Positions 3,216 through 62,148 of a stretch of DNA of 64,000 bases are shown piece after piece. Numbering within the stretch: position 1 is the stretch's first letter; each line of letters starts with the position of its first letter. This DNA comes from an uncultured Pelagibacteraceae bacterium. GTDB taxonomy: Bacteria > Pseudomonadota > Alphaproteobacteria > Pelagibacterales > Pelagibacteraceae. A model generated the notes under the pieces. The model saw nothing but the letters and a program-made list of their open reading frames with translations. It did not search any database and was not told where the DNA came from. The DNA lies in assembly GCA_902627805.1 (NCBI GenBank), contig CACOKN010000003.1, forward strand, positions 1 to 64,000, written 5' to 3'. Made by a program: the position numbers and the translations under genes.

Positions 3216-5128
3216 TATTTAACAATTAAGAATGTTAATAAAGCAGAAAAACCAAGTAACATTACAAAAGCATATTGATATATGTACCCACTTTGAAATT
3301 TATTAGCTTTTACTGAAAATTTTTTAATCATCGACGAAATACCGTCTGGACCAAACCCATCGATAATTTTCAAATCAAAGAACTTCCATAAAAATAAACC
3401 CAATTTTTTTGATGATTTAACAAATAAAACATCATAAAGTTCATCAAAATACCACTTATTTAATAAAAACTGATAAAGCGGTTTATTTATACTAGCTAAT
3501 CGTTCAGGTAAATTTCTATTTTTAACGAATAAATAATATGCTAGTGGAATAGACAATATAACCAAAGTTGGGGTAAGTAACAAAAACCATAGTGGTGGGT
3601 GATCAGTGCTTAATGGTTTTAGAAAAAATATTGAGTCACGCCAAAAATTATTTAGACCTTCATAACCGATAAATAATTCTTTAAATAAAAATCCTGCAAA
3701 TATTGCACCAATTGATAATAAAACTAGAGGTATCAACATCACGATAGGAGACTCGTGCGTCTCAGCTATCTTTATCTCTTTATTATTATACTCACCATGA
3801 AAAGTTTTAAAAATTAATCTCCAAGAATAAATTGATGTAAGAAATGCTGTAAAAATACCTATACCAGCAGCATAATAACCTGTTGTATTTCCTCTCAAAT
3901 AAGCAAATTCAATTATTGCATCTTTAGAATAAAAACCTGACAAAAATGGAAACCCCGTTAAAGCTAGTGTTCCTATAATCATTAGTGAATAAGTGTATGG
4001 AAGTTTTTTCCACACGCCTCCCATATTATTTATATTTTGTTCGTCTTTAAAAGCATGAATTACTGAACCAGATCCTAAAAATAATAGAGCTTTAAAAAAC
4101 GCGTGAGTAAATAAATGAAACATTGCAACATTATATGCTCCCACGCCAGTGGCAAAAAACATGTAACCTAATTGGCTACAAGTAGAATACGCAATTATTT
4201 TTTTAATATCATTTTGTACTAGAGCTACTGTTGCAGCAAAGAATGCAGTACTCATACCAATGATCGTAATGATATTTAAAGCTAGATCAGAGTATTCAAA
4301 AATTGGTGAACACCTTACAACTAGAAAAACTCCTGCTGTTACCATTGTGGCGGCATGAATTAAGGCAGAAACAGGTGTTGGTCCTTCCATAGCGTCTGGT
4401 AACCAGGTATGAAGTAAAATTTGTGCTGATTTACCCATAGCACCAATGAACAAAAGTAAGCAAATCAAATCTACAGCATTAAATGTGATACCTAAAAATA
4501 CCAAATCTTTATCTGTAATGTTTGGAATTTTAGTAAAAACCTCAGAATAATTTACTGTTCCAAATAAATAAAAAATTAAAAATATTCCTAGAGCAAACCC
4601 AAAATCGCCCACTCTATTCACTACAAAAGCTTTAATTGCAGCTTTGTTTGCTGACTCTTTTTTAAACCAAAATCCTATTAAAAAATACGAACATAAGCCT
4701 ACACCTTCCCAACCAAAAAATAATTGAATGAAATTATCTGCAGTAACTAACATCAGCATTGCAAATGTAAATAAGGATAAGTAAGCCATAAATCTTGGTT
4801 TGTGCGGGTCGTGAGACATATAACCGATTGAATAAATATGAACTAAGGCAGAAACTGATGTAACAACAACTAACATCACAGCAGATAATGAGTCAATCTT
4901 CATTGACCAATTTACTTCAAGCGATCCAGAGCTAATCCATGTCGCAATTATTATGTTCTCTTGATATTTATTAACAACAACCTCATACAAAACAAGGACA
5001 GAAAAAATTGCTGAAATAAATACCAACAGGCTAGTGATAATTTCTGAGCTTCTATCTCCTATTAATTTTCCAAAAAATCCTGAAATAATTGAAGCAACTA
5101 ATGGTAATGCTATAATCGAAATTTCCAT
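3215..5128 (-). CDS. nuoL: NADH-quinone oxidoreductase subunit L
   Basis: 637 aa; HTWLPDAMEGPTPVSALIHAATMVTAGV motif. Confidence 0.96.
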   Translation of the reverse strand: MEISIIALPLVASIISGFFGKLIGDRSSEIITSLLVFISAIFSVLVLYEVVVNKYQENIIIATWISSGSLEVNWSMKIDSLSAVMLVVVTSVSALVHIYSIGYMSHDPHKPRFMAYLSLFTFAMLMLVTADNFIQLFFGWEGVGLCSYFLIGFWFKKESANKAAIKAFVVNRVGDFGFALGIFLIFYLFGTVNYSEVFTKIPNITDKDLVFLGITFNAVDLICLLLFIGAMGKSAQILLHTWLPDAMEGPTPVSALIHAATMVTAGVFLVVRCSPIFEYSDLALNIITIIGMSTAFFAATVALVQNDIKKIIAYSTCSQLGYMFFATGVGAYNVAMFHLFTHAFFKALLFLGSGSVIHAFKDEQNINNMGGVWKKLPYTYSLMIIGTLALTGFPFLSGFYSKDAIIEFAYLRGNTTGYYAAGIGIFTAFLTSIYSWRLIFKTFHGEYNNKEIKIAETHESPIVMLIPLVLLSIGAIFAGFLFKELFIGYEGLNNFWRDSIFFLKPLSTDHPPLWFLLLTPTLVILSIPLAYYLFVKNRNLPERLASINKPLYQFLLNKWYFDELYDVLFVKSSKKLGLFLWKFFDLKIIDGFGPDGISSMIKKFSVKANKFQSGYIYQYAFVMLLGFSALLTFLIVK

Positions 5129-58852: not shown

Positions 58853-60553
58853 TTATCTCGAATTATTATCATTAACATAAACTGATACGCCTCTTGTGTT
58901 TATATCAACATCGAACTTTTTGTGTAAAGGTGGAAAGGCTCTTTGAGAACAATCTAATCTGTCACACGTTCTGCATGAGACACCTATTGGAATTTCGGTT
59001 TTTTTATCAGAAATATCCAAATTTTCTGTGTAAACAAATTCTTTTGCATATTTTGCTTCACAGCCTAAACCAATAGATAAAATACTTTTAGATTGACCAT
59101 ATCTTCCAACACCTTTTTCAACAGTTTTTGCTATACATACATACTTCTCCCCATTGGTCATTTTGCTTACCGCAGCTTGAATTACTCCTGGTCTTGTAAA
59201 TGCAGAATAAACATTCCACCTAGGACATGCCCCACCATATCTTGGGATTTCTATTCCAGATAATGAAAATCTTTTTGAAATATTTCCAGCCATGTCCACT
59301 CTTAAAAAATGAAAAGGAATGCCGGGTAATTCTGGATCTTGTAAACAAGTTACTCTATGAGCTACTTGTTCAAAGGAAGTTGCAAATGTATTTTGTAATA
59401 ATTGAAGATCATATTTCAATCTCTTACATTCATTATGAAAAAGTTTATATGGCATAAGTATAGCTGCCCCACAATAATTCAATAATGCAACTTGAGTTAA
59501 TCTTTTAGATTCATCTGATGGAAATTTAAATTTTGATAAATAATATTCAATAATATCACTAGCTCCTTCTTGAGCAATTTGAGCTGCAGCATGTAATTTT
59601 TTTGTCTCTAACGAGTTGTAATCACTTAGTAATAATTCTTTATTTTTCTTATTAAAAACTTTTGAAAATGGCTTTTTTTCTTCAGGTATTAAGTCTCTTA
59701 CTTTTATTGAATATTCTTTTTTTAAAAAATCACACAAAGCTACGTATCTAGTTCGATTATTTTTTTGAACTTTTTCAAAAATTTCATTAGCAAAATTTTC
59801 AAGTTTAGGAAAATAATTTTTATTTTCCTGTAAAAAATCAGATATAACCTCACCAGGAAAAGAAGTTTTTCTACTATCAATTATTTTCCCAGATAAATTT
59901 TCTACTTTATTTATAATTTCATGATCTTTTTGTTTAAAATTGTCACCAAGTTTTATTAAAGCCTTTGCGATTTTAGGATTTGTATTTACTAAATCTTTAA
60001 CCTCAGGTCCTAAAATATCTAAGTCATCAAATAGTTGATCATCTAAAAGATTTGAAATATCATTTTCTAAATTTATATCACTTTTACTTGTTAAATCTGA
60101 TAGATCTACTCTAAGTTCTTTGCTAATTTTGATTAGTAAATCACCATCTATTTTTCTTTTACTTGATTCAATTAAATTCAAATAACTAGGTGATATATTT
60201 AGTTGTTCAGCAAATTTGTTTGCTTGAAGTCCCAATTGACGTCTAAAAGCTTTTATTTTTGGTCCAATTTTAAGATCTAATTTATTTAAATTTTTTACTT
60301 TTGAAAATTTTGAAATAGCTAATTTAGAATTATTAAGATCAATTTCATTTTCATTTTTTAAATCTGATAATTCAATTCTAAGCTCCTGGCAAATTTTTAA
60401 AAGTAATTCACCATCAATTCCTCGTTTTCCACTCTCAATTAGATTTAAATAACTTGCTGATATATTTAATTGTTCCGCTAATTTTTTTGCTTGAAGACCA
60501 AGTCTTTTACGGAAAACCTTTAATTTCTCACCAATTTCTCTATTAAATTTCAT
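58853..60553 (-). CDS. ScfR/RamB-like short-chain fatty acid metabolism regulator with duplicated N-terminal HTH
   Basis: 566 aa; two XRE-type HTH copies (aa 7-65 and 96-154), IrrE-like middle, Cys-rich CRTCDRLDCSQRAFPPLHK C-terminus. Confidence 0.87.
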   Translation of the reverse strand: MKFNREIGEKLKVFRKRLGLQAKKLAEQLNISASYLNLIESGKRGIDGELLLKICQELRIELSDLKNENEIDLNNSKLAISKFSKVKNLNKLDLKIGPKIKAFRRQLGLQANKFAEQLNISPSYLNLIESSKRKIDGDLLIKISKELRVDLSDLTSKSDINLENDISNLLDDQLFDDLDILGPEVKDLVNTNPKIAKALIKLGDNFKQKDHEIINKVENLSGKIIDSRKTSFPGEVISDFLQENKNYFPKLENFANEIFEKVQKNNRTRYVALCDFLKKEYSIKVRDLIPEEKKPFSKVFNKKNKELLLSDYNSLETKKLHAAAQIAQEGASDIIEYYLSKFKFPSDESKRLTQVALLNYCGAAILMPYKLFHNECKRLKYDLQLLQNTFATSFEQVAHRVTCLQDPELPGIPFHFLRVDMAGNISKRFSLSGIEIPRYGGACPRWNVYSAFTRPGVIQAAVSKMTNGEKYVCIAKTVEKGVGRYGQSKSILSIGLGCEAKYAKEFVYTENLDISDKKTEIPIGVSCRTCDRLDCSQRAFPPLHKKFDVDINTRGVSVYVNDNNSR

Positions 60554-60556
60554 TAA

Positions 60557-60647
60557 TTTGTAAATTTTGTAAATTTTAATTTACAAAAAATTTACCTAAT
60601 TTACAAGCAAAATTGATGTTTTTAGTAGATTTTGTAAATCTTGTAAA
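60557..60647. promoter_or_regulatory. Putative operator array TTTGTAAA/TTTACAAA between regulator and aceA side
   Basis: TTTGTAAA at 60557, 60566, 60631; CTTGTAAA at 60640; TTTACAAA at 60580; TTTACAAG at 60600. Confidence 0.6.
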
Positions 60648-60660
60648 TTATAAGCTACAT

Positions 60661-60822
60661 ATGGACGAAAAATTAAAAAATAATGAAAATGAGGCTCAAA
60701 TCATAAGACATGAGGATCTAACTAGACACAATAGCAGAGGGATCTACATGAGAGATGACCATTGTGATTGGGGTTCAAGTGGAATGAAAGATCTAGTTGA
60801 GACCCTAAACGACTCAAACTAA
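60661..60822 (+). CDS. Small hydrophilic protein (53 aa), hypothetical
   Basis: In-frame ATG at 60661 of the 60613 ORF: MDEKLKNNENEAQIIRHEDLTRHNSRGIYMRDDHCDWGSSGMKDLVETLNDSN*; first start codon after the operator array. Confidence 0.55.
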   Translation: MDEKLKNNENEAQIIRHEDLTRHNSRGIYMRDDHCDWGSSGMKDLVETLNDSN

Positions 60823-60870: not shown

Positions 60871-62148
60871 TTGATGAGTGCAGAGAATGTCTCATATGAC
60901 TTAAAAAGATTTGCAGGAATCAAAAGAGATTATACTCCTGAAGATGTTGAGAGACTTAGAGGATCATTGAAAATTGAGTTCTCTTTATGCAAACAACAAT
61001 CAAAAAAACTATGGACTTTATTAAACTCAGAACCTTATATTAACACACTAGGATCATTATCTGGAAACCATGCTGTTCAGCATGCTAAAGCTGGTTTAAA
61101 AGCGATTTACTTGAGTGGATGGCAAGTTGCTGCCGATGCAAATAGTGCTGGCGAGATGTATCCTGATCAATCTTTATATCCATATGATAGTGCTCCAAAA
61201 TTAGTAGAGTCAATGAACAATGCCTTATTAAGAGCTGATCAAATTCAACATATGGAAATAATTGATGGTGATATGAAAGGGGAAAAAAGAATTGACTACA
61301 TGTTACCAATAATTGCAGATGGCGAAGCTGGATTTGGTGGACCTCTGAATGTTTTTGAACTTGCAAAGAAATTTATAAAAGCAGGAGCTGCTGGAGTACA
61401 TTTTGAAGACCAATTAGCAAGTGAAAAAAAGTGTGGACACATGGGTGGAAAAGTACTTGTTCCAACTGGTACAATGATAAAAAATCTTAAAGCTGCAAGA
61501 TTAGCAGCTGACATCGCTGATGTCCCATTAATTATTTTGGCTAGAACTGATGCAAATGCAGCAAAATTAATTACTAATGATCATGATGATAATGATAAGC
61601 CCTTTTTAACAGGTGAAAGATCTCCAGAAGGTTTTTATTATGTTAAAGCTGGTATTGATCAAGCGATTTCAAGGGGTCTTGCCTATGCGCCATATTCTGA
61701 TTTAATTTGGTGCGAAACAGCTACACCAAATCTTGAGGAAGCTAAAAAATTTGCAAATGCAATTCATGAAAAATTTCCTGGAAAACTTTTGGCTTATAAT
61801 TGCTCTCCATCTTTTAATTGGAAAAAACATTTGTCAGATAGTGAAATAGCTTCATTTCAACAAGAAATAAGTAAAATGGGTTATAAATTTCAATTCATTA
61901 CACTAGCGGGATTTCATACACAAAATATAGCTATTTTTGAATTAGCCGAAAAGTATAAAAAAGAAGGTATGACTGCATATTCAAAAATCCAACAACAAGA
62001 ATTTGCTCGTGAAAAAGATGGTTACACAAGTGTAAAACACCAAAGAGAAGTGGGCACATCTTATTTTGATGCTGTTTCTAATACCATAAGTAGTGGAAAA
62101 AGTTCAACTACAGCAATGGATGGCTCAACAGAGTCAGAACAATTCTAA
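60871..62148 (+). CDS. aceA: Isocitrate lyase
   Basis: 425 aa; [53 protein letters not shown] (KKCGH), [11 protein letters not shown]. Confidence 0.97.

Follow-up and report, generated by a model that had tools for sequence, protein, structure and literature searches.

The window (the whole 64,000-nt stretch of DNA analyzed here) comes from a 1.14-Mb Pelagibacter (SAR11) genome and carries, in divergent orientation, a gene for a RamB-like regulator and the isocitrate lyase gene aceA (Table 1). Between ramB and a 53-aa ORF (sORF) lies a 107-bp spacer, which holds an array of 8-bp boxes. A sequence-only reading had named six of these, and all six are borne out: TTTGTAAA reads at 60557, 60566 and 60631, CTTGTAAA at 60640, TTTACAAA at 60580, and TTTACAAG at 60600. 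The same reading had the array facing aceA; that gene does lie on this side, but the sORF comes first. Boxes 1-2 and 5-6 have the form TTTGTAAA-T-TTTGTAAA and TTTGTAAA-T-CTTGTAAA, and the ramB start codon is 3 bp from boxes 1-2, which lie on its upstream side. Boxes 3 and 4 are 20 bp apart. To this list we add a third pair with 9-nt pitch, TTTACCTAA/TTTACAAG, found at 60591–60607 in the source genome; in most relatives the half corresponding to 60591 is degenerate.

Table 1. Features of the ramB–aceA locus, in window coordinates
Feature	Position	Strand	Remarks
RamB-like ScfR regulator, 566 aa	58853..60553	-	HTH1, HTH2, IrrE-like domain, ScfRs C-terminal domain with C-X2-C-X4-C
HTH2, residues 97-155	60089..60265	-	Ancestral DNA-binding domain
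HTH1, residues 5-65	60359..60541	-	Lineage-specific tandem copy of HTH2
Boxes 1-2, TTTGTAAATTTTGTAAA	60557..60573	+	Tandem pair, 9-nt pitch
Box 3, TTTACAAA	60580..60587	-	TTTACAAA on + strand equals TTTGTAAA on - strand
Box 4, TTTACAAG (60600-60607), with degenerate partner TTTACCTA at 60591	60591..60607	-	9-nt pitch
Boxes 5-6, TTTGTAAATCTTGTAAA	60631..60647	+	Tandem pair, 9-nt pitch
-10-like element, TATAAG	60649..60654	+	TATA-to-ATG distance 12 bp in 129/139 spacers
sORF, 53 aa	60661..60822	+	Invariant RDDHCDWGSSG core; first gene of predicted sORF-aceA operon
aceA, isocitrate lyase, 424 aa from ATG after AAAAAGGA	60874..62148	+	NF011645, 726.9 bits (cut-off 562)

Six sites matching [T/C]TTGTAAA on either strand fall within 91 bp. 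In third-order Markov simulations (n = 200, 64 kb each), the densest 91-bp cluster never exceeded three sites, a value reached once, and three was also the maximum in dinucleotide shuffles of the spacer (17% GC; n = 2000). The box cluster is not explained by chance. Individual TTTGTAAA words show no enrichment across the window (20 occurrences versus 16.4 expected), and hence it is only the clustering that is significant. A shared helical face of the six boxes was not significant (R = 0.69 at 10.5 bp, P = 0.15) and is not claimed. Each TTTGTAAA box corresponds to the palindrome TTTGCAAA with one C-to-T change. Because TTTGCAAA is palindromic, the distinction between 'direct' and 'inverted' copies largely disappears, and strand orientation carries little weight. 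By this comparison, the TTTGTAAA and TTTACAAA boxes appear to be AT-drifted forms of the ScfR box TTTGCAAA.

The protein encoded by ramB has the features of the ScfR/IsaR short-chain acyl-CoA regulators, namely an HTH, domains PF09856 and PF06114, and a cysteine motif. The N-terminal XRE-type HTH is present in two stretches (HTH_3, 1.2e-23), the ScfRs domain PF09856 scores 200.7 bits against a cut-off of 24 (1.6e-59), and the IrrE-like domain PF06114 scores 37.7 bits against a cut-off of 22. Solved structures of M. tuberculosis PrpR are matched at 6e-61. The cysteines of C527-X2-C530-X4-C535 are invariant across 28 aligned homologs, and this C-X2-C-X4-C motif has been assigned to a [4Fe4S] cluster (PMC6765138). 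The actinobacterial RamB equivalog NF038139 is not reached (394.3 bits versus a curated cut-off of 700), which means that neither the ligand nor the sign of regulation can be transferred from actinobacterial RamB. The earlier description called RamB 'related' to this regulator; the regulator goes beyond that and is itself an ScfR protein.

To gauge conservation, we compared 146 distinct same-genus (Pelagibacter) spacers, and 139 of them match one template, with the caveat that the genomes are related and the counts therefore non-independent. In this template, boxes 1-2 keep their 9-nt pitch, box 4 starts 43 bp from box 1, and neither of two longer distances varies beyond a single nucleotide: box 3 follows box 1 by 23 bp and boxes 5-6 follow by 73 or 74 bp, in 139/139 templated spacers each. 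The boxes and the TATAA element are kept across the 139 spacers, the intervening DNA far less so, and indels are nearly absent within the box frame but tolerated beyond it. A motif scan, which the sequence-only reading had proposed, was run on 40 near-complete genomes. The exact 17-mer TTTGTAAAnTTTGTAAA occurs 38 times in 31 of these genomes, and all 38 copies lie at the ramB-aceA locus; a reversed control pattern occurs three times in the same set. A regulon elsewhere was considered and rejected, as the two one-mismatch copies away from the locus fall inside long open frames. Both ramB and aceA are absent from seven near-complete genomes of the genus (G128, G153, G172, G206, G210, G235 and G237). 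This suggests that gain or loss affects the glyoxylate locus as a whole.

Across the genus, the sORF occupies the interval from ramB to aceA. An ORF of 52–56 aa follows 138 of the 139 templated spacers, with a median pN/pS of 0.36 and a near-invariant core, G(I/V)YxRDDHCDWGSSG. Related ORFs in distant genera of Pelagibacteraceae read REDDQDWGxSG. Homologs are present in L006-L071, L180, L181 and L182, and when 142 genomes from the whole class were searched with a profile, only the two Pelagibacteraceae had the sORF. Searches of the sORF against Pfam and NCBIfam gave no match. Judged from these patterns of sequence conservation, the sORF very probably encodes a translated protein tied to the glyoxylate locus. 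Other genera of Pelagibacteraceae have a different small ORF, either beside the first or alone; in L182 it begins MRREKNNIESNCVSFDDACFDETN (about 3220-3395) and in L183 it begins MTHREKHNIESNCVSYNDDCYNETN, in both cases within the ramB-aceA interval. The L180 sORF is preceded by a Shine-Dalgarno-like AAGGAG, and the sORFs of the genus are apparently leaderless.

Taken together, the comparative data make it highly likely that the array is the operator through which the divergent ScfR-type RamB controls aceA in Pelagibacter, with RamB as the putative protein bound to the spacer boxes. The idea of a glyoxylate-shunt control site, already voiced from the sequence, gains support from the rigid spacing and the locus-only 17-mer; its companion idea, co-evolution with a double HTH, does not. 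Judging from the position of the TATA element, transcription is predicted to start near 60661, where the ATG of the sORF begins. Since the TATA lies 12 bp before this ATG, a leaderless transcript is predicted. The spacer region contains no match to a sigma-70-like promoter or –35 element, which fits a promoter that requires an activator. Relative to the predicted start of sORF-aceA transcription, boxes 5-6 span about –30 to –14, where RamB occupancy would repress, and boxes 1-2 abut the ramB start, where occupancy would autoregulate. The stretch from about –104 to –54, which holds boxes 1-4, would be suited to activating a promoter that has no recognizable –35. Published work on P. denitrificans RamB describes repression of the glyoxylate operon on succinate and activation on acetate, and a tetramer that CoA esters turn into a dimer. 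By analogy, ligand-free RamB tetramer would repress both divergent promoters, and the acyl-CoA-bound dimer would recruit RNA polymerase and activate the sORF-aceA operon. A literature search on glyoxylate control in Pelagibacter found no relevant paper.

The sequence-only reading took the 9-nt tandem array to match what the two HTHs of one regulator chain could read, suggested that operator and regulator had co-evolved, and proposed a comparison with single-HTH strains. The regulator in the window does carry a duplicated HTH. The copies in double-HTH proteins are roughly 50–75% identical with the recognition region kept in both, AlphaFold2 models them as two separate folded domains, and at least 44 distinct proteins retain the duplication. 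However, identical arrays stand beside single-HTH regulators, an outcome that the same reading had named as refuting its idea: the templated spacers (n = 139) divide into 97 with a single-HTH and 42 with a double-HTH regulator, and boxes and spacings are alike in both. The outgroup, comprising other Pelagibacteraceae genera, has one HTH, so the single form is ancestral, the double form emerged within the genus and the array was there before the duplication. Single-HTH genera outside Pelagibacter also carry 9-nt pairs; L182 has three, with a clear tandem pair at the place matching box 4. The PrpR footprint, from a single-HTH protein, itself has the 9-nt pitch, and the modeled linker between the HTHs, about 30 residues of low confidence, would set no pitch. 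One observation favors co-evolution, in that box 3 is exactly TTTACAAA in 37/42 double-HTH versus 20/97 single-HTH spacers, but this large raw difference amounts to about one independent contrast and was rejected as evidence on that ground. Reading of the array by two co-evolved HTHs is thus very unlikely, and the co-evolution idea is rejected. The HTH duplication is real and maintained, yet the 9-nt pitch is independent of it, and the extra HTH appears from the phylogenetic distribution to have been added onto an operator already in existence. In the L029/L032 clade, branch support of 95–98 hints at a secondary loss of HTH1, but a single clade of double-HTH proteins was not rejected by the AU test (p = 0.12), so that later loss of HTH1 there is a possibility.

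Two further explanations do without RamB. The boxes could work in RNA, with box 2 and box 3 forming a leader hairpin that governs attenuation or stability; TTTGTAAA-N6-TTTACAAA is able to pair, and these boxes are rigidly spaced. But the predicted transcription start lies at the sORF ATG, with the boxes upstream of it, and in 44/97 single-HTH spacers box 3 is TTTACAAT while box 2 is still TTTGTAAA, so that the outer pair is broken and uncompensated. With no terminator-like site in the region and no Rfam match, we rejected this reading, the least probable of those considered. Alternatively, another DNA-binding protein (an XRE regulator or nucleoid protein) could read the array, its proximity to ramB being incidental. 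The genome does encode at least one other XRE-type protein (a weak match of 30% identity, G000:C2:53180), and RamB binding is a prediction from sequence. Against this, regulator and target genes are divergently arranged, the seven genus genomes without ramB are also without aceA, the exact 17-mer occurs at no other locus in the 40 near-complete genomes, and the boxes fit the ScfR consensus. We consider this extremely unlikely, and return to RamB as the probable reader of the array.

SAR11 bacteria count among the ocean's most abundant cells; their transcription factors are few, and the cells themselves are difficult to manipulate. For these reasons, there is value in a RamB-array pair that comparison supports down to the level of single bases. 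In the HTH duplication, a transcription factor gains a DNA-binding domain and its operator does not change. This is the opposite of simple operator-regulator co-evolution, and the natural single- and double-HTH orthologs make this case testable in vitro. A possible but rather doubtful extension is that the array governs a leaderless mRNA whose first product, the family-specific microprotein of the sORF, acts in glyoxylate-shunt control (for example on isocitrate lyase or RamB), and that the RamB of one SAR11 clade acquired another DNA-reading head, with extra contacts such as box 3, while its operator was unchanged.

The array invites comparison with the site of PrpR, a single-HTH ScfR protein of M. 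tuberculosis, whose DNase I footprint reads TTTGCAAA-N-TTTGCgAA, i.e. two 8-bp palindromes with one base between them (PMC3420887, PMC6765138). PrpR also targets a site upstream of icl1 (PMC3420887, PMC6765138). Both systems place two 8-bp TTTGCAAA-like palindromes at 9-nt pitch beside a divergent ScfR regulator gene, and the Pelagibacter pairs show this arrangement, including the single intervening base, if one C-to-T position is allowed. Pelagibacter differs in having TTTGTAAA in place of TTTGCAAA, three elements rather than one and, in the window, a regulator with two HTHs. The class 2 RamB of Paracoccus denitrificans is likewise an alphaproteobacterial ScfR protein encoded divergently from glyoxylate-cycle genes and associated with more than one box (PMC10370305). 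On the complementary strand of the published oligonucleotide (PMC10370305) we find CTGTAAGGTTTGTCA and CAGTCAGTATTGTCA, which by our own inspection hold TTGTnA-type half-sites 9 nt apart within each box. There, two boxes with an 18-bp spacer precede malate synthase-icl, whereas in Pelagibacter three elements precede sORF-aceA; these start at 60557, 60591 and 60631, leaving gaps of 17 and 23 bp instead of the 18-bp spacing. Among single-HTH alphaproteobacterial ramB-aceA spacers more widely, 9-pitch TTTAC/GTAAA pairs occur in 4/15, compared to 0.01 in shuffles. The RamB of Corynebacterium glutamicum shares the TTTGCAAA core and regulates aceA and aceB (PMC4448153). Its motif is a 13-bp AA/GAACTTTGCAAA with many genomic targets (PMC4448153), in contrast to the Pelagibacter 17-mer, which in exact form is limited to one locus. 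The probable Pelagibacter operator array is thus strongly conserved and of a kind already known, in a lineage that is new for it and important.
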